Shown: positions 12,741 to 20,357 of the stretch, in pieces
Layout of the letters: each line of letters begins with the position of its first letter
Position numbering within the stretch: the first letter of the stretch is position 1
DNA from: Gammaproteobacteria bacterium
GTDB lineage: Bacteria; Pseudomonadota; Gammaproteobacteria; Steroidobacterales; Rariloculaceae
Reading direction: 5' to 3'
Assembly (NCBI GenBank): GCA_003155415.1
Contig: PMCP01000067.1
Span: forward strand, 54,421 to 87,851
DNA length: 33,431 nt
The notes under the pieces: model-generated
Databases searched by the model: none
The model's input: only the letters and a program-made list of their open reading frames with translations
What the model was told of the DNA's origin: nothing
Position numbers and translations under genes: made by a program

Positions 12741-13622
12741 TCAGTGCTGCATGCCCCAGCGGCGGACCGTGCGCTGCTCGATCGTCCGGAAGATCACGTT
12801 CTCGACGAACAACCCGAATAGGATCACGGTCAGGAGCCCGGCGAAGACTTCTGGAATTCTGAGCTGGTTCTTGTTCTCGAAGATGTACCAGCCGAGCCCG
12901 CCCGACCCCGAGCTCACGCCGAAAACGAGTTCGGCCGCGATCAACGTGCGCCATGCGAACGCCCAGCCCACCTTGAGGCCGGTCAGGATGCTCGGAAACG
13001 CGCCGGGGATCAGGATGCGCACGATATAGCCGAAGCTCGTGAGGCCGTAATTCTGACCCACCATGCGCAACGTCGGAGACAGCGTGCGAAAGCCCGCGAA
13101 GGTATTCAGCGCTACGGCCCACAACACAGCGTGCACGAGCACGAAGATGACGCTGCCGTCGCCGAGGCCGAACCAGATCAGTGCGAGCGGGAGCAGTGCG
13201 ATCGAAGGTAGCGGGTTGAACATGGCGGTCAGCGTCTCGAGGAGGTCAGCGCCGATGCGCGACACGCTTGCGAACGCGGTGAGCAACGCTGCGAACACGA
13301 GGCCCGTGACGTAGCCCTTCAGCAGCAGAGACAGCGTGTACGCGCCGGCACGCGGAATCGCGCCCGTGCCTATTCCTTCGAATAGGGCGCCGACCGTGGA
13401 GCTGAACGTGGGGAACACCAGGGAGTTGTTCAATACGCGTGCGTAGATCTCCCACGCGGCTGCGAGCAATACGAGCAGCACTGATTTACGCACCGTGCCG
13501 TTCGCGTACACTTTTGCCCAGAACCCGAGCGGTGCCGCGGTGACGGCGAAACCCGCAGCATCGTTGCTCGGCGCATGCAGGATTTCCGGTCGCGTGACGT
13601 GCGCGGCATGGTTCTCAGACAT
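12741..13622 (-). CDS. ABC transporter permease, nitrate/sulfonate/taurine type (SsuC/TauC-like)
   Basis: This is the inner-membrane permease of a class of importers that take up small anions, sulfonates, pyrimidine precursors and similar organics. I chose the ATG at 13622, which has GGGGAG 8 bases upstream and overlaps the ATPase stop by 8 bases; a TTG six bases earlier is weaker. The 293-residue protein has about six hydrophobic helices. The EAA-type cytoplasmic loop is seen around YGLTSFGYIVRILIPGAFPSILTGLKVGWAFAWRTLIAAEL, and the family hallmark GLGWYIFENKNQL comes near the end. It forms one operon with the ATPase and the binding protein, ending at a strong hairpin. The cargo cannot be told from the permease. 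Confidence 0.92.
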   Translation of the reverse strand: MSENHAAHVTRPEILHAPSNDAAGFAVTAAPLGFWAKVYANGTVRKSVLLVLLAAAWEIYARVLNNSLVFPTFSSTVGALFEGIGTGAIPRAGAYTLSLLLKGYVTGLVFAALLTAFASVSRIGADLLETLTAMFNPLPSIALLPLALIWFGLGDGSVIFVLVHAVLWAVALNTFAGFRTLSPTLRMVGQNYGLTSFGYIVRILIPGAFPSILTGLKVGWAFAWRTLIAAELVFGVSSGSGGLGWYIFENKNQLRIPEVFAGLLTVILFGLFVENVIFRTIEQRTVRRWGMQH

Positions 13623-14424
13623 CGGCAATGCTCCCCGTGCGTTCGAACAACAAACGCTGAATGCGCGCCGACGTAAGTTCGCCGTCGGCCCCCAAGGTGT
13701 CGGTGCCCGCGCTGTTGATCTCGGCCTTAGTGCGGCCCGGGTGCGGAGTCAGCAGCAGAATCCGGTTGCCGATTCGAATGGCTTCCGGGATCGAGTGCGT
13801 GACGAACAGCACCGTGAACTTAGTATCTTCCCAAAGTTGCAGCAGATCGTCCTGCATCTTGCCGCGCGTCAGAGCGTCGAGCGCTGCGAACGGTTCGTCC
13901 ATCAGCAGGATCTGCGGCTCCATGGCCATCGCGCGCGCGATGGCAACGCGCTGCTTCATGCCGCCCGACAACGTGTGCGGAAAACTCCCGGCGAATTTCG
14001 CGAGCCCGACTTTGTCGATGAAGTGCAGCGAACGTTCGATTGCGTTGCGTTTGTCGAGCTTCCCGCTGGCCGTCAGCGCGAACACGATGTTGTCGCGCAC
14101 CGTTTTCCACGGCAGCAGCTGATCGAACTCCTGGAACACGAACGCGCGATCCGGCCCCGGTTTGCCGATCTTGGCGCCAGCGAGCAGCATCTCGCCCTCG
14201 ACGGGCTGCAGGTAGCCGCCGATTGCCTTCAGCAGCGTCGACTTACCGCAGCCCGACGGCCCGAGCAGCACGAACCGGTCCGACTTCAGCACGTCGAAAC
14301 TCACGCGGTACGTTGCCGTCACCATCTGCTCGCCCGTGCGGTACTGCAGCGTCACCCCCTTTACAGACAGCAGCGGCGCAATCGCGTGCGAGGTGCCTGA
14401 CGATGGCGCGGATGGGCTAACCAC
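13615..14424 (-). CDS. ABC transporter ATP-binding protein (SsuB/TauB-like)
   Basis: This 269-residue ATPase subunit has all nucleotide-binding motifs intact: Walker A GPSGCGKS at residues 55-62, Q-loop FQE near 97-99, signature LSGGMKQ beginning at 152, Walker B ILLMDEP at 172-178, D-loop ALDALTR and the switch histidine in VTHS near 210. This motif set, with GCGKSTLL and RVAIARAMAMEPQILLMDEPFAALDALTR, is typical of the nitrate/sulfonate/taurine group. It starts with GTG at 14424; no in-frame ATG precedes Walker A with better support. The C-terminal 45 residues (RTKAEINSAGTDTLGADGELTSAR) are as usual for this group. The gene overlaps the permease start by 8 bases and follows the binding protein by 32 bases. 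Confidence 0.95.
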   Translation of the reverse strand: MVSPSAPSSGTSHAIAPLLSVKGVTLQYRTGEQMVTATYRVSFDVLKSDRFVLLGPSGCGKSTLLKAIGGYLQPVEGEMLLAGAKIGKPGPDRAFVFQEFDQLLPWKTVRDNIVFALTASGKLDKRNAIERSLHFIDKVGLAKFAGSFPHTLSGGMKQRVAIARAMAMEPQILLMDEPFAALDALTRGKMQDDLLQLWEDTKFTVLFVTHSIPEAIRIGNRILLLTPHPGRTKAEINSAGTDTLGADGELTSARIQRLLFERTGSIADV

Positions 14425-14456
14425 GGACTGCCACTCGCGGCGTGATGACCCCGCTA

Positions 14457-15488
14457 CTACGACCCGGGGGCGCCATGAATCTCAGAGAAAAAGAGATCGC
14501 GCCACGACTCGGGTTTATGAGTGATGGAGCCGATCGTCTGCATGAACGCAGCATACTTCTCAGTGTTCTCCGGCGTAGTCGTGAATTTGATATCGGCTGA
14601 GCCGAGAACTTCGACCAGCTCCTCGACCGAAAACCCCGCGGTCGCCTCGGCCTTGAAAAGAATCTCCGCAGCCGCGCGCGGATCGCTGCGAATCAACTCG
14701 TTCGCTTCCTCGAGCGCACCGAGAACCGCCGCGTACGCCTGCGGATTGGCTTCGCGAAACTTCGCCGTCGTCGACAGCATTGTGAATGTCGTCGAGCCGC
14801 CCATGATGTCGTCGCTGTTGAGCACCGTGTGGACCTTCGCGTCCTTGATCTCGCGTTGGTGAAACGGCGGCGACGTGAAGTGCGCGTCGATCTGCCCGGA
14901 GCCGGCCATCATCGCGATTAGAGCGTCAGCGTGCGTCATCGTCACCGTATAGCGATCGAACCGAAACGCCTCGGCCACTCCGAACTTCTCGGCGGCGTGC
15001 ATCTGCATCACGATGGACGGGATCGACACCTTGACGGAAGTAACGGCGATCTTGTCCTGTGCGTTCAAGTCGTCGATCGACTTCAGCGCCGGGTTCGTGG
15101 TGTTCAAATACATCGGCAGCGAAGACATCGCTGCTACACCCCGCACGTCGGCGGAGCCGCGCGTGCGATCCCAGAGTGTGATGAACGCCGGTGGCCCGGC
15201 GGCGATGAAATCCACGGAGCCCGAGAGTAGCGCGTCGTTCATGACCGCCGGGCCGCCAAGCTCGATCCAACGCACCTTCAACTCGGAGAGGCCCGCGGCC
15301 TGCGCGTGCTTCTCGATCAGACTGCGGTCGCGCATCACGAGCAACGGCAGAAATCCGACGCCGCCGGCGCCGAGAGGAATTCGAATCTCTTTGGCCGGTC
15401 CGGCGGATTGTTGACCGCCGCAGCCCGTCACGAGCAGCGCGGCGAGCGCGAGGCTCGCAACCCGCATAAAGGCGCTTCGTGCGCGCAT
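14457..15488 (-). CDS. ABC transporter substrate-binding lipoprotein (NMT1/SsuA-like)
   Basis: This periplasmic binding protein delivers cargo to the adjacent permease. The leader ends LLVTGCGG, a clear lipobox, so it is tethered to the membrane. The mature part has the NMT1/THI5-like layout: RIPLGAGGVGFLPLLVMRDRSLIEKHA, then RWIELGGPAVMNDALLSGSVDFIAAGPPAFITLWDR. The hinge segment is IDDLNAQDKIAVTSVKVSIPSIVMQMHA. I take the ATG at 15488; a GTG immediately before it (15491) is equally possible. Only 4-7 bases separate it from the MmgE/PrpD stop, so the importer is translationally linked to that enzyme. This suggests the cargo is a substrate or relative of what MmgE/PrpD handles; that is inference from position. 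Confidence 0.92.
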   Translation of the reverse strand: MRARSAFMRVASLALAALLVTGCGGQQSAGPAKEIRIPLGAGGVGFLPLLVMRDRSLIEKHAQAAGLSELKVRWIELGGPAVMNDALLSGSVDFIAAGPPAFITLWDRTRGSADVRGVAAMSSLPMYLNTTNPALKSIDDLNAQDKIAVTSVKVSIPSIVMQMHAAEKFGVAEAFRFDRYTVTMTHADALIAMMAGSGQIDAHFTSPPFHQREIKDAKVHTVLNSDDIMGGSTTFTMLSTTAKFREANPQAYAAVLGALEEANELIRSDPRAAAEILFKAEATAGFSVEELVEVLGSADIKFTTTPENTEKYAAFMQTIGSITHKPESWRDLFFSEIHGAPGS

Positions 15489-15492
15489 CACG

Positions 15493-16863
15493 TCAGTGCG
15501 TGACGCGGCCGACGCGCGCCGTCGCCGTGCGCGGTACCGTGGCGCGCGCGAGATCGCCGGCGTCCTTCAACGCATCGATGCGCCAACACTGGTCGACGAC
15601 GGCATCGACCTGTGCTCGCGGCAGCGCGAGCACGGCCTGGTCGACGAATTTCTCGGTCAACTGCTCGTTGGTGAGTGGCCGATGCAGGTTGCCGAGCGAC
15701 TGCTCGACGAACTTGGTCAGCGTTCGCCCGTCGCGCAGCACGACTTCGATGTGCACCTGATCCTCGGTGATCGCGGTGTCGCCTACGGCGGTCGTCACGG
15801 CACGCACACGTTCGAGGTCGGGATCGCGGAGGGCGTCTTCGTTGAACTCCTGCAGCCCACCTTTGCCGCGTACTAGGCCGATCGCTGCGGCGTGATAGAT
15901 CGAGTACTTGCTCTCGAGTGCACGCTTCAAGTTGCTCTTGTTGCATAGATCGAGCACGAGCGGCGCAACGCGCAGGCGCACGCCAGCGATCGAGTCCGGC
16001 GCCGGATGAAATTCGCGATGCAGCTGACTACAACCGTCGATGGTGGGATGCACGACCAGACCGCAGGCGTAAGGCTTGTACGCGTTGTCACGCAGCTCGA
16101 AAGTCTTGCCGAGCCCGGAGGTGATTTTGTCGAGATCGTATTGCGCTGCTGTCACGGCAGCGAAGCCACGCGGGCCTTCGATCGAATGCTCGCCAGCAGT
16201 GAAGTCGGCGCGGCCAAGTAGCGCGGCGGTGTAGCCGTTCTGCGCGGCGCGGCCGGGTTGGAACGACTTCGCCATCGAGCCGAACATCTCGCGAAGACCG
16301 GCCGCTTGCGTGGCCGCCAGGCCGAACGCCCACACCATCTGTTTCGTAGAAAGGCCGAGCAGCTTGCCGATGGCGGCCGCGGCGCCGAACACGCCGGTGG
16401 TCGACGTGATGTGCCAGCCGGCCGCGTAGTGCGCTGGGTAGACGGCGTTGCCAATGCGCGACTCGACCTCGAAGCCCAGGATGAACGCGTGGACGAAGTC
16501 ACGGCCGGACACAGGATTTGCGCTTGCGTGAGCGAACAGCGCGGACGCCACCGGCACACTCGGATGGATGATGTTCTTCGGCAGCGTGTCGTCGTACTCG
16601 TGCACGTGCGAGCCGATGCCGTTCATCAGCGTCGCGTGCAACGCGTCGAAGCGTTCGGCGCGGCCGAGCACGCACGCAGTCGCATTGCCGGAATAGGGCG
16701 CGAGCGTGCGGATCGCCACGTCGAGCGCTGGCTCGATGCTGCCGCCGAGCGCGCAGCCCAAATAATTGAAGATGGCGCGCTTGGCTTCGTCTTGCGTCTC
16801 GCGCGGGATCGCTTCGAGCCTGCTGTCGACTACATAGGTCGCCAGCGCTTCGGTCACGGACAT
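15493..16863 (-). CDS. MmgE/PrpD family protein
   Basis: This family contains 2-methylcitrate dehydratase PrpD, MmgE, cis-aconitate decarboxylase and iminodisuccinate epimerase, so the reaction is probably on a di- or tricarboxylate. The frame opens at 16962, but the ATG at 16863 has AGGGGAA seven bases upstream and gives the standard start MSVTEALATYVVD; the result is 455 residues. Visible family blocks are FNYLGCALGGS, NGIGSHVHEYDDTLPKNIIHPSVPVASALFAHA (about residues 79-111), AGWHITSTTGVFGAAAAIGKLLGL, GLAATQAAGLREMFGSMAKSFQPGRAAQNG and KPYACGLVVHPTIDG. No prpB, prpC or acnB neighbour is present, so a methylcitrate role is not supported. It heads the ABC importer cluster. Confidence 0.93.
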   Translation of the reverse strand: MSVTEALATYVVDSRLEAIPRETQDEAKRAIFNYLGCALGGSIEPALDVAIRTLAPYSGNATACVLGRAERFDALHATLMNGIGSHVHEYDDTLPKNIIHPSVPVASALFAHASANPVSGRDFVHAFILGFEVESRIGNAVYPAHYAAGWHITSTTGVFGAAAAIGKLLGLSTKQMVWAFGLAATQAAGLREMFGSMAKSFQPGRAAQNGYTAALLGRADFTAGEHSIEGPRGFAAVTAAQYDLDKITSGLGKTFELRDNAYKPYACGLVVHPTIDGCSQLHREFHPAPDSIAGVRLRVAPLVLDLCNKSNLKRALESKYSIYHAAAIGLVRGKGGLQEFNEDALRDPDLERVRAVTTAVGDTAITEDQVHIEVVLRDGRTLTKFVEQSLGNLHRPLTNEQLTEKFVDQAVLALPRAQVDAVVDQCWRIDALKDAGDLARATVPRTATARVGRVTH

Positions 16864-16886
16864 CGCATTCCCCTGAATCGAACGTG

Positions 16887-16962
16887 GTGCCGGGCCTTGC
16901 AAAGTTGCGCAGAGTCCCCGGGCGTCGCGGCCCCACGCAATCAGCAGCGCAAGGCCTGGCAC
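16887..16962. repeat. 14-bp inverted repeat in the MmgE/PrpD leader
   Basis: GTGCCGGGCCTTGC (16887-16900) and GCAAGGCCTGGCAC (16949-16962) are complementary at 13 of 14 positions. The remaining pair is a G-U wobble in RNA of one strand. The 48-base loop is itself GC-rich. It occupies most of the 108-base gap between the beta-propeller gene and MmgE/PrpD. It may be a transcriptional boundary, a processing site or an operator. Confidence 0.6.
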
Positions 16963-16971
16963 TGTCTTTTG

Positions 16972-18075
16972 CTAGTTCACGAATCTTAGGCAGTAGATCG
17001 GCGGCAGATAGTGGCTGACATTCTGCCAGCTATCACCCTGGTTTTCGCTGACGAACAAGTTGCCGGTGGTGCTGCCGAACGCGAGTGTAGCGCCATCGGC
17101 ATCGATGTCGAGCCCATGGCGATACACGAGGTCATACGCATGTTGTTGCGGCAAGCCGTTGCGCAGGATCTCGAAGGTCTCGCCGCCATCCCGCGTGCGT
17201 GACACCACGAGCGCTCCATCCACGGGGTAGCGCCACTGATCTTTCTTGCCCGGCACAAACCATGCGGTCAGCGGGTCGCGGGGATGTGCCACCACTGGGA
17301 AGCCGAACACGGACGGCTGCGCGTTCGTGATCTCGGTGCACGTGAGGCCGCCGTCGGTACTCTTGAAGATACCGTTGTGATGCTGAATCCAAATGTGATC
17401 CGGCTGGGCGATGCACTGCGCGAGCCGATGCGCATCCTGTCCTCTGCGCTCGTACGCCTGATCGGGTGGGGCGTAGTCCGCGCGCAGACCCTGACCATAA
17501 CAGTCCCACGACGCGCCGCCGTCACGGCTCATCCAGAGTCCACCGCACGAGACGCCGATGCGTACGATGTCGGGATCCCGCGGGTCGACGAGCACCGAGT
17601 GGATGCCGGGATAGTCTGCGCCGCCGCCCACCCAAAACTTTCGGTCGGGGTGCTTCCAGAGGCTCTCGACGAGTTGCCACCGGTCGCCGCCGTCGCGCGA
17701 GTGGAATAGCCCCCCAGGGATAGTGCCGCACCAGAGCTCGCCGTCGCGTGGCGACCCTTCGAGCGCCCACACGCGCTTCGTGTCCCACGGGATCGGCGTG
17801 CCGCGCATTGGATCGAGATCGACAACGTCGTCCGGCTTCGGTGGAAATGCCGGCACCGGCCGCTCTTCCCATGTGCTGCCGCCGTCGCGCGAGCGTTTGA
17901 GCTTCACGCCGAAGTGGCCCATGTCCTGCGCCGCGTGGAGAGTGCCGTCGCGCTCGGCGAGCACCATTGTGACGGGGTCGCCCAACAGTTCGGCGCGATC
18001 GATACGCCACTCGCCGCCGTGACGACCGACCATGAACACGCCCTTACGCGTGCCGACCAGTAGCTTGCTCGCCAT
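16972..18075 (-). CDS. Cytoplasmic BNR/Asp-box beta-propeller protein
   Basis: This 367-residue protein has no signal peptide and six Asp boxes (S/T-x-D-x-G-x-x-W/F). They lie near residues 62-69, 126-133, 183-190, 239-246, 294-301 and 343-350: SRDGGSTW, SRDGGDRW, SRDGGASW, STDGGLTC, TRDGGETF and SENQGDSW. Such repeats make sialidase-like or Vps10/photosystem assembly-type beta-propellers. No sialidase catalytic arginine triad or FRIP motif is evident, so an exo-alpha-sialidase annotation would overreach. The ATG at 18075 has GGGGG six bases upstream. A second ATG at 18081 overlaps the stop of the MoaD/ThiS-like gene as ATGA, so the two are translationally coupled either way. A partner-binding or chaperone role with that small protein is my inference. 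Confidence 0.88.
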   Translation of the reverse strand: MASKLLVGTRKGVFMVGRHGGEWRIDRAELLGDPVTMVLAERDGTLHAAQDMGHFGVKLKRSRDGGSTWEERPVPAFPPKPDDVVDLDPMRGTPIPWDTKRVWALEGSPRDGELWCGTIPGGLFHSRDGGDRWQLVESLWKHPDRKFWVGGGADYPGIHSVLVDPRDPDIVRIGVSCGGLWMSRDGGASWDCYGQGLRADYAPPDQAYERRGQDAHRLAQCIAQPDHIWIQHHNGIFKSTDGGLTCTEITNAQPSVFGFPVVAHPRDPLTAWFVPGKKDQWRYPVDGALVVSRTRDGGETFEILRNGLPQQHAYDLVYRHGLDIDADGATLAFGSTTGNLFVSENQGDSWQNVSHYLPPIYCLRFVN

Positions 18076-18077
18076 TG

Positions 18078-18347
18078 TCATCCCCCAGAAAGTGACTGAA
18101 AAACATACACTTCGCTACTAGGTTGAAGGTCATCTGTAAGTTTTCGCCGGTCGCGCAGGTTGCGTCCGTCGATGAGCACCTTCACGTGATGGCGTACTTC
18201 GCCCTGGTTGTCGAGCACGTAGTCACGCACGCCAGGCCAGGTTGCGAAGTAGCGCTCGAGCAGTTCTGCCACGGTGCTCGCCGCTATTGCGGCCGTCGGG
18301 CACTCGGTATGGCGAGCCAGATTTTGGGTGAAGTGCAGGCTCGCCAC
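18078..18347 (-). CDS. MoaD/ThiS-like ubiquitin-fold protein with C-terminal Gly-Gly
   Basis: This 89-residue beta-grasp protein ends in FQSLSGG. The C-terminal diglycine is what E1-like enzymes adenylate in MoaD, ThiS and related sulfur carriers or protein modifiers. Other family features are TVAELLERYFATWPGVRDYVLDNQGEVRHHVKVLIDGRN and LQPSSEVYVFQSLSGG, the usual MoaD/ThiS strand order with the hydrophobic strand before the tail. No moaE, thiG, thiF or JAMM protease is adjacent, so a molybdopterin or thiamine role is not supported by context. Its stop overlaps the first possible ATG of the propeller gene, and it starts 10 bases after the Kdo hydroxylase gene. The partner of this carrier is unknown. 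Confidence 0.87.
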   Translation of the reverse strand: MASLHFTQNLARHTECPTAAIAASTVAELLERYFATWPGVRDYVLDNQGEVRHHVKVLIDGRNLRDRRKLTDDLQPSSEVYVFQSLSGG

Positions 18348-18357
18348 GGCCGGGGCC

Positions 18358-19266
18358 TCAGGCCGCGGAGCGCGCGAGCACGTGGTACGGCGTCAGTGCC
18401 GGCGTGCGGCAGTTAGCCAGCGGCACGAGGACGGTCGTCACGAGCGCGTACTGGCCCGTCAGCACCGAGTGGCTGATGCCGTCGGTGAATACCATCCAGG
18501 CCGATAACGGCGGAAAGTGGATCTCCTGATAGTTCTCACGACTATCACGGAACTCCGGGTTTTCTTTCATGAAATTGTGGATGCGCCGCATTGAGCGATC
18601 GTACGGGCTCGAGTCGAGCACTCGCGCGAGCGGGTACAGCTTCCCGACGGCGCTGACGAGACCGCTGTACAGCGCGTCGACCGGGCTCTTGTCGATGGTC
18701 ACTCGCGGCTTGCCGCCGCGCGCCGCCGTCCAGATCTCGGGGTGGCGGCCCATGATTGCGTTGAAGCTGCCCTTCGTGCCCCAGACGCGATTGCGGTCGG
18801 GGTGGATGTTGACGAAAAAACGCAGGATGCGTGCGCCATTCGTGGCGCCGTAAGCGCCCGCATCGATGTGCACGAGCTCGTTGCTCGAGCGTGGCTTGAG
18901 CTTGCGGCCGTGCTCTTCGATCGAGCGGAAGCTGGTGGTGCCGAGCGTCCAGTTCGGTACAAAGTCGGGGCAGCTCGCGCGTAGAAACGCCTCGACGCGT
19001 TGGCCGTGTGCTCGCAGGATTCGCTCGATGCGCTGTGCGACTTCGGGTGCCGCTTCGAATCGCGGAATTGAATCGGATTCAGGGTGATAGCTGATGTTCT
19101 TCACCTGCAATTCGCGCGGCAGGCCCGTGCGCATGAACTCCAAGTCGGCCGCGTTCGGCAACTCGAGCGGGCAGCGGTCGTAAAACACGACCTCGGCGCG
19201 TTCCATTGCGTCCTCGGTTTCGGCCGGGCTGGCTTTGGTGAAATCGCGAAGAGCGTAGCGTTCCAT
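18358..19266 (-). CDS. kdoO: Kdo hydroxylase family protein (Fe(II)/2-oxoglutarate dioxygenase)
   Basis: KdoO converts 3-deoxy-manno-octulosonic acid of the LPS inner core to the 3-hydroxy form (Ko), a non-haem iron reaction at the inner membrane or cytosol. The 302-residue product has the facial-triad motif HIDAGAYGATNGARILRFFVNIHPDRNRVW, with the His and Asp ligands near residues 120-122, and a distal His in GISHSVLTGQYALVTT. This matches the family as I remember it. The open frame extends far upstream within the glycosyltransferase gene. I use the ATG at 19266, with GAGG nine bases before it; an ATG at 19281 overlapping the upstream stop as ATGA is also possible. Its neighbour being a heptosyltransferase strongly supports the LPS-core assignment. 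Confidence 0.85.
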   Translation of the reverse strand: MERYALRDFTKASPAETEDAMERAEVVFYDRCPLELPNAADLEFMRTGLPRELQVKNISYHPESDSIPRFEAAPEVAQRIERILRAHGQRVEAFLRASCPDFVPNWTLGTTSFRSIEEHGRKLKPRSSNELVHIDAGAYGATNGARILRFFVNIHPDRNRVWGTKGSFNAIMGRHPEIWTAARGGKPRVTIDKSPVDALYSGLVSAVGKLYPLARVLDSSPYDRSMRRIHNFMKENPEFRDSRENYQEIHFPPLSAWMVFTDGISHSVLTGQYALVTTVLVPLANCRTPALTPYHVLARSAA

Positions 19267-19277
19267 GGTCGATGACC

Positions 19278-20357
19278 TCATTGACGGGGCTGTACGCCGC
19301 ACTCTACGAACGCGGCGTCGAGCTTCGAGACGACGTCCGGCACCGTGATCAGACTCATCGCGGCGGGATCGCGCACGCGTTGGCCCCAGCGCAGCGCCTC
19401 GATCGGCTTGCCGAACTCGCGTTCGACGGCCTCGGGGTATTTGTCGACGACGAGATGCTGGCTGAAGTACGGCCCTGTGCGATGGCGGTTCGACGTTGCA
19501 TACAGGCCCACGACGGGCGTGCCGACTGCAGTCGCCATGTGCGCGGGCCCGGAGTCCGGACACAGCACCACGGTTGCGCGCTGCAGAATGGCCAGCAGTT
19601 GCTTCAAGTTGGTCTTGCCGATCAGGTTGTGCGGTGGCGACTTGGCCATGGCGGTGATCTCGCGGCCATAGGTCTGTTCGATCGCGGTGTTGCCGCCGGT
19701 GAGCAGAACCCGGGCGCCGTAGCGCTTCGCCGCATAATCCGCGATCTCGGCATACCAGTCCACCCGCCAATTGCGGTAGTTGCGAAAGCGCTGCCCCGTG
19801 CACGGGCTGATCACGAGCGTGGGCGCGCCACCGGCAAAATGCGGCGCGACGGCCGCGACGTCGTCAGCGCCGATCGGGATTTCCCACCGCGGTGTGCCGT
19901 GCGGTACGCCGATGAGGTCCGCGAACTCGAACAACCCGTCCATGACGTGCCGCTCGCGCCGCGGCAGCAGCCGTGTGTTCGTGAACAGCCACTGGTGATC
20001 GCGTGCCCGCGCCTTGTCGAAGCCGATCCGAACTTTTGAGCGCACGGCGAGGCTCGCGATGTTGGCGCGGGCCGACGCGTGCATGTGCAGCAGTGCGTCG
20101 AAACGCTTACCGCCGAGCGCACGGCGCACCGCGCCGTAGCCACTCCAGCCGAGCGCCTTGTCGAGCACGACGAACTCAACGCCCTCGAGGCCCCTCAGTA
20201 ATGAGTGCTCCGTCTTGCCGATGATCCAGGTCAGGCTCGTGCTCGGCCATGCGCTCTGAATCGCGCGCACGACGGGAACCGTGTGACATGTATCGCCGAT
20301 CGCGGATAGCCGGATGATGCAGAGCGACGCGGGTGGTTGGCCGAAAGGCAGCTGCAT
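19278..20357 (-). CDS. Glycosyltransferase family 9 (LPS core heptosyltransferase-like)
   Basis: This 359-residue cytoplasmic GT-B enzyme transfers ADP-heptose, or a related sugar, to the growing LPS inner core. Family landmarks are the N-terminal CIIRLSAIGDTCHTVPVVRAIQ with its acceptor-side Gly-Asp, a mid segment LVISPCTGQRFRNYRNWRVDWY and the donor-site motif VLCPDSGPAHMATAVGTPVVGLYATSNRHRTGPY. A C-terminal helix completes the fold. It could be WaaC, WaaF or a WaaQ-like core transferase; the sequence alone does not choose, so I give no symbol. It is translationally linked to the Kdo hydroxylase gene downstream and lies 86 bases after trxA. No other LPS gene is in the window, so this is an isolated core-modification pair. 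Confidence 0.92.
   Translation of the reverse strand: MQLPFGQPPASLCIIRLSAIGDTCHTVPVVRAIQSAWPSTSLTWIIGKTEHSLLRGLEGVEFVVLDKALGWSGYGAVRRALGGKRFDALLHMHASARANIASLAVRSKVRIGFDKARARDHQWLFTNTRLLPRRERHVMDGLFEFADLIGVPHGTPRWEIPIGADDVAAVAPHFAGGAPTLVISPCTGQRFRNYRNWRVDWYAEIADYAAKRYGARVLLTGGNTAIEQTYGREITAMAKSPPHNLIGKTNLKQLLAILQRATVVLCPDSGPAHMATAVGTPVVGLYATSNRHRTGPYFSQHLVVDKYPEAVEREFGKPIEALRWGQRVRDPAAMSLITVPDVVSKLDAAFVECGVQPRQ

Follow-up and report, generated by a model that had tools for sequence, protein, structure and literature searches.

The window analyzed here, a stretch of 33,431 nucleotides from a gammaproteobacterial assembly, carries on its minus strand two overlapping genes, one for a small ubiquitin-like beta-grasp protein (Ubl) and one for an Asp-box beta-propeller. 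The features of this pair are the following:

18078..18347, minus strand: Ubl, a SAMP1/CysO/MoaD-like beta-grasp protein of 89 aa (open reading frame, NF041918, AF2, Foldseek)
18081..18098, minus strand: codons of the free C-terminal tail Q84-S-L-S-G-G89 of the Ubl (alignment of 52 Ubls)
18078..18081, minus strand: ATGA, 4 nt shared by the stop codon of the Ubl gene and the first ATG of the propeller open reading frame (sequence)
16972..18081, minus strand: cytoplasmic Asp-box beta-propeller of the 3b7f (Reut_B4987) family, 369 aa (open reading frame, phmmer, AF2, Foldseek)

The Ubl reading frame begins with a GTG start codon and ends with a TGA stop at positions 18080-18078, and its translation terminates in YVFQSLSGG. 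When 52 Ubls from many phyla were aligned, Q84, L86, S87, G88 and G89 were invariant, whereas the columns outside the tail averaged about 60%. Column 85 is occupied by alanine in 94% of these proteins, and the window protein has a serine there. Against the Pfam ThiS profile (PF02597), the window Ubl scored 19.2 bits, below the gathering cutoff of 22.5; its best named sequence family was the SAMP1 equivalog NF041918, with 45.8 bits, below the curated cutoff of 60. A Foldseek search with its AF2 model (mean pLDDT, 91.9) placed SAMP1, 1v8c and CysO on top and also recovered BexX/CysO, Urm1, MoaD and ThiS, the nearest structure being SAMP1 (3po0, E value of 3e-6, TM of 0.80; also 4hro). The predicted structure thus has the five-stranded beta-grasp fold of the ThiS/MoaD/SAMP superfamily, and the protein has the free C-terminal diglycine of that superfamily. 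The earlier note had described an 89-residue beta-grasp protein with a free SGG end, which the reading frame, the AF2 model and Foldseek bear out. Three other Ubls (loci L103, L113 and L155) run about 65, 7 and 2 residues beyond the diglycine, respectively, and either require trimming or reflect sequencing errors.

The propeller is homologous over its full length to the protein of PDB entry 3b7f (Reut_B4987/YP_299179.1; phmmer, 7.9e-46; about 32% identity), and its AF2 model (pLDDT, 95.4) has the same fold (Foldseek, 2.2e-31; TM of 0.87), as expected for a member of the 3b7f Asp-box propeller family. 3b7f is a 7-bladed propeller from an uncharacterized family (PMC2716378). Six Asp-box-like motifs were found in the window protein, three strict and three degenerate, and no signal peptide was evident from its N-terminal sequence. 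The former description of a six-Asp-box cytoplasmic propeller is therefore right about the fold and the six motifs, but the number of motifs is not the number of blades, 3b7f being 7-bladed. The near-invariance of M3 in the alignment of homologs points to the second Met (residue 3, at 18075; ATG at 18075-18073) as the probable conserved start, with which the two genes would lie 2 nt apart. Translational coupling is plausible whether the start is the first or the second Met.

Upstream of the pair (window positions 18358-20357, minus strand) lie lipopolysaccharide core genes, namely, those for a Kdo hydroxylase (PF11004) and a heptosyltransferase-like GT9 protein. Downstream (12741-16962, minus strand) are an aliphatic-sulfonate/taurine-type ABC transporter (SsuA-like) and an MmgE/PrpD protein, neither of which is conserved next to other pairs.

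The recurrence of the pair was investigated in two sets of genomes. A search with the propeller only, using one genome per species, retrieved more than 560 relatives, the best 80 loci of which were analyzed and had been picked without regard to the Ubl. These 80 loci span Gamma- and Alphaproteobacteria, Verrucomicrobiota, Planctomycetota, Acidobacteriota, Gemmatimonadota and Myxococcota, i.e., at least six phyla. Among these best 80 of more than 560, a Ubl was found directly upstream of the propeller and on the same strand at all 79 loci with upstream sequence, at a distance of 1 to 161 nt, and at 76 of the 79 it ended exactly in [A/S]LSGG, the other three carrying short or longer extensions. 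No conserved third gene was found near the pair, since no other neighbor recurred at more than 4 of the 80 loci. Thus, in the main lineage, the pair is a stand-alone two-gene unit.

The second set consisted of 369 genomes of the window's class and overlapped partially with the first, some contigs being identical. It contained 47 propeller loci in 44 genomes. Three of these were not counted as family members: the G262 propeller, which in full view lacks K13, H161 and Q233, and the G150 and G357 loci, which are weak relatives of G262 (31% identity). A Ubl adjoined the propeller at 39 of the 44 family loci. This count is made up of 37 loci, including two with yqeC in between (G266 and G155), and two loci with a divergent Ubl. 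The latter propellers (G085 and G332) had been candidates for lacking a Ubl until the divergent gene was found downstream (..AIAGG in G332; the same sequence family in G085). All five family loci without an adjacent Ubl have a tie to yqeC, either as members of a yqeC-linked clade or through a neighboring yqeC gene, and in one of them, G362, the operon ends at the contig end. Seen from the other side, all 35 Ubl matches of at least 79 bits in these 369 genomes adjoin a propeller, yqeC separating the two genes in two cases. As adjacency by chance is expected on the order of 2/3000 per locus, the recurrence is far beyond chance. The earlier note had offered as a vague memory that the pair recurs in other genomes and had proposed a co-occurrence search across genomes. 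The memory was right, and the pair is conserved in at least six phyla rather than limited to close relatives; the breadth of the pairing supports the note's further suggestion that the diglycine Ubl has a dedicated partner in the propeller.

Mapped onto a propeller tree with 44 rows, the position of the Ubl (upstream or downstream of the propeller, in a yqeC operon, or absent) requires at least five changes, losses included. The Ubl lies upstream in the main clade; it is downstream in a sister clade (G010, G160 and G318) as well as in further deep clades, and the operon with yqeC arose once. The adjacency outlives REARRANGEMENT and is kept through several changes of gene order. Propellers without a neighboring Ubl occur in Streptomyces, Marivivens and Rhodobacter. 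Among the homologs examined, none was a Ubl-propeller fusion; reading frames of 480 to 640 aa with Ubl matches proved to be Ubl-rhodanese-E1 fusions or chance open frames. The distances among Ubls correlate with those among propellers (r of 0.52; 0.40 between phyla), a value to which we attach little weight because it is inseparable from shared descent. PADLOC matched neither protein to an anti-phage defense system. At one locus (L024, positions 571-2679, on contig C44 of G164), a Ser/Thr protein kinase domain is fused N-terminally to a family propeller, with a Ubl downstream; this contig is small and possibly foreign to the metagenome-assembled genome (MAG).

We then looked at the proteins with which Ubls of this superfamily usually work. 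No relative of an E1, a JAMM protease, CysM or YqeC was found in the window, and the window and the best 80 main-lineage loci together contained no relative of CysM, JAMM, YqeC or a molybdenum hydroxylase. Single rhodanese-like frames were present at 3 of these best 80 loci of more than 560. The window Ubl is linked neither to ThiG, as is typical of ThiS, nor to cysM and mec+, as is typical of CysO; linkage to cysM/mec+ was seen only for related Ubl fusions. The only MoaE of the genome is encoded on another contig (C66), in a moaACDE cluster with a different MoaD ending in ..FFPPVAGG, which rules out the window Ubl as the MoaD of the molybdenum cofactor pathway. The earlier note had named a functional pairing of the small protein with a moaE or thiG elsewhere in the genome as evidence against its idea; this objection does not hold, as the genome's moaE has its own moaD. 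ThiG was not found in this assembly, which is 82% complete, and no E1 over the cutoff was found in it either. We read the latter result as probable incompleteness of the assembly and not as proof of absence. Pairs were also present in a 96% complete genome in which MoaE was undetected (G310) and in a 98% complete genome in which ThiG was undetected (G354). An E1 over the cutoff was present in all 29 near-complete genomes tested, all of them pair carriers, which indicates compatibility and not dependence. JAMM is not needed by the pair, since strong matches were obtained in only about half of the pair genomes and none was found in G010.

One sub-clade departs from this picture. In G266 and G155, the gene order is propeller, YqeC, Ubl, JAMM and rhodanese-MoeB E1 (L160, 6845-10743, and L161, 8540-12546, respectively), with a cysteine synthase a few kilobases away. 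In these operons, YqeC (TIGR03172) and the E1 score over their cutoffs, and the best match of the JAMM is desampylase, below the cutoff. G362 has the same gene set, split across two contigs. The statement that no E1 or JAMM gene lies near the pair is thus correct locally and for the main lineage but not for the whole family, as this operon holds both an E1 and a JAMM. YqeC, annotated under "selenium cofactor biosynthesis," here shares an operon with a full Ubl activation set. Moreover, a related Ubl is fused to rhodanese-E1 in G061, G164, G011 and G028 (L063 to L066); G011, G028 and G164 carry propellers of the yqeC clade, and G061 has no propeller match. Among the three loci whose flanks were read, a cysteine synthase lies beside the fusion in L063 to L065 and a JAMM in L064 and L065. 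Judged from sequence, the gene set of these fusions and of the yqeC operon is that of CysO-type sulfur transfer. The E1/JAMM linkage and the fusions support E1/sulfur-carrier chemistry for the family, with the E1 probably acting in trans elsewhere, although the fused or operon Ubls are only distantly similar to the window Ubl (about 26 to 30% identity). Ubls were seen in other settings as well. A distant one, ending in ..VPAIGGG, immediately follows the gene for a molybdenum hydroxylase large subunit (L071, 1866-4458). Similar Ubls were read by eye directly beside a MoeB/ThiF-like E1 (L079, 3733-5152; L077, 3821-5197), and the L079 Ubl-E1 sits in a cluster resembling a natural-product locus.

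The propeller family has a conserved set of residues, which in the window protein are encoded as follows:

18043..18045, minus strand: K13, invariant, top face (loop 2-3)
17599..17601, minus strand: H161, invariant, top end of an inner strand
17428..17430, minus strand: H218, invariant, top end of an inner strand
17377..17385, minus strand: Q233-H234-H235, with Q233 invariant and H235 lost only in part of the yqeC clade
17230..17232, minus strand: R284, top face, Arg except for His in two of the family members compared
17119..17121, minus strand: R321, family-invariant, top face

K13, H161, H218, Q233 and R321 were retained by every family member compared, and the main clade additionally conserves H56, D216, H234, D281 and H322. 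The conserved residues are predicted to map to loop 2-3 or to the top ends of inner strands, a placement that follows the predicted strand order in the secondary-structure string and not coordinates. A related Asp-box propeller, Ycf48, binds the C-terminal tail of D1 (PMC10403576). Like the window protein, Ycf48/HCF136 is an Asp-box propeller; it has seven blades and grips the C-terminal tail of its partner with the help of a conserved Arg patch. In contrast, it is a photosystem II assembly factor without a Ubl, and its structural similarity to our model is weak (TM of about 0.5). The same top-face residues are retained in the propellers of Marivivens, Rhodobacter and Streptomyces that do not adjoin a Ubl. 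The site may therefore bind a small molecule or substrate instead of, or besides, the Ubl tail.

Taken together, these data fit a single functional unit: an E1 would activate the Ubl as a carrier, and the propeller would serve it as a dedicated acceptor or receptor. We favor this reading over the alternatives below and consider it evenly balanced between right and wrong. From the observed pairing and its wide distribution, the invariant tail, the top-face site, the separate MoaD/MoaE of the genome and the linkage or fusion of Ubls with E1, rhodanese and JAMM, we infer that an E1 activates the Ubl, that its tail docks in the pocket and that sulfur passes to a substrate. The diglycine carboxylate of the Ubl would be adenylated in trans by the shared MoeB/ThiF-type E1 of the cell and then thiocarboxylated by a rhodanese or desulfurase. 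The tail would enter the open top of the propeller tunnel, where K13, H161, H218, Q233, H235, R284 and R321 might hold it. At this site, sulfur could be handed to a small molecule, or the Ubl could be sensed or released. The propeller, with a new fold, would thereby stand to the Ubl as ThiG does to ThiS, MoaE to MoaD and CysM to CysO.

Known systems resemble the proposed one in part. Mycobacterial CysO/Mec+/CysM, which acts in cysteine biosynthesis, has the same Ubl fold (3dwg and 3dwm), and the related fusions lie beside a cysteine synthase, but the main-lineage pair has no linked CysM, JAMM or E1 and its partner is a propeller. SAMP1 of Haloferax volcanii, considered with the desampylase HvJAMM1, is the nearest structure and best named family, whereas the window Ubl is bacterial, scores below the cutoff and has as its partner a propeller rather than MoaE or JAMM. 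In molybdopterin synthase, the gene for the small diglycine carrier MoaD likewise lies beside that of its larger dedicated partner, MoaE; in contrast, our genome has a separate moaACDE cluster, and the propeller is a different partner fold. The BexX/CysO-type carrier of Amycolatopsis also shares the Ubl fold (4n6e). This carrier likewise has no known dedicated E1, and its acceptor is a thiazole-synthase-like enzyme and not a propeller. A narrower version of the carrier reading makes the propeller the sulfur-accepting enzyme of a Ubl thiocarboxylate carrier, with the tail threaded into the tunnel and the His/Gln/Arg/Lys site holding the substrate. This version we advance tentatively, as the less probable side of the question; if true, it would mean that at least six bacterial phyla share an acceptor fold, and probably a sulfur-transfer reaction, that are new.

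The Ubl might instead remain bound to the propeller, non-covalently and permanently, as a regulatory or structural subunit that no E1 ever activates, with the tail as a docking peptide. Such an arrangement is consistent with the general lack of linked E1, rhodanese and JAMM genes in the main lineage, with the plain-peptide binding of C-terminal tails by Asp-box propellers (Ycf48-D1; PMC10403576) and with the lack of an E1 over the cutoff in the MAG itself. We nevertheless consider it unlikely, given that related Ubls are fused to, or share an operon with, E1 and rhodanese, that the free terminal diglycine found at 76 of the 79 loci (best 80 of more than 560) is a requirement of E1-activated proteins and that all 29 near-complete pair genomes tested encode an E1.

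Conjugation in the manner of SAMP1, with the propeller as main target, reader or E3-like adaptor, appears quite unlikely to us. It would agree with SAMP1 as the nearest structural match, with the sequence similarity to the SAMP1 sub-family and with the desampylase-like JAMM in one sub-clade operon. However, about half of the pair genomes have no JAMM match or only a weak one, and a one-to-one pairing with a single protein fits a carrier and its acceptor better than general modification. In addition, SAMP-type systems are not known to have an E2, and no E2 was seen here.

The yqeC operon (TIGR03172) of one propeller clade, together with the distant Ubl directly downstream of the molybdenum hydroxylase subunit at L071, would suit a role in selenium or molybdenum-hydroxylase maturation, with S or Se carried on the Ubl and the propeller acting alongside YqeC-type factors; we regard such a role as improbable, since the window and the best 80 loci contain no relative of YqeC or of a molybdenum hydroxylase. 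Finally, a conventional glycosyl hydrolase or sialidase function for the propeller, with the Ubl gene as a bystander, is hardly credible: Asp boxes are frequent in glycosidases (PMC2716378), and relatives are annotated as "exo-alpha-sialidase" or "sialidase family protein," but the window protein lacks both the FRIP motif ([FYW]R[ILVM]P) expected of a GH33 sialidase and an evident signal peptide, its family has seven blades as opposed to the six of sialidases (PMC2716378), and adjacency to a Ubl is near-universal across at least six phyla.

What is understood of the known bacterial carrier-type Ubls comes through dedicated partners such as ThiG, MoaE, CysM and BexE. In the literature searched, the propeller is a fold unreported for the role of Ubl partner, here seen across at least six phyla; the same literature yielded no description of the pair itself, and no paper contained "MoaD" and "BNR" together. 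The words BNR, sialidase and propeller are absent from a 2006 survey of prokaryotic Ubls (PMC1779556) and from a 2010 archaeal survey (PMC2948915), and BNR is unmentioned in a 2007 survey of the beta-grasp fold (PMC1949818). The pair thus looks like an overlooked two-protein system. It provides a testable function for a propeller family whose structure, 3b7f, appeared in 2007 without one. Public annotation lists the two genes as "MoaD/ThiS family protein" and "exo-alpha-sialidase," for example, on a Pseudomonas aeruginosa plasmid and in Mitsuaria, and we caution against interpreting these propeller genes as sialidases. The pair occurs in tractable organisms, namely, Cupriavidus metallidurans CH34, Pseudomonas and Burkholderia. 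Inferred by synteny with the YbaK gene PA1357, the pair of strain PAO1 should be PA1355-PA1356, and PA1356 of P. aeruginosa has been discussed as a colonization and adhesion factor (PMC11538994).
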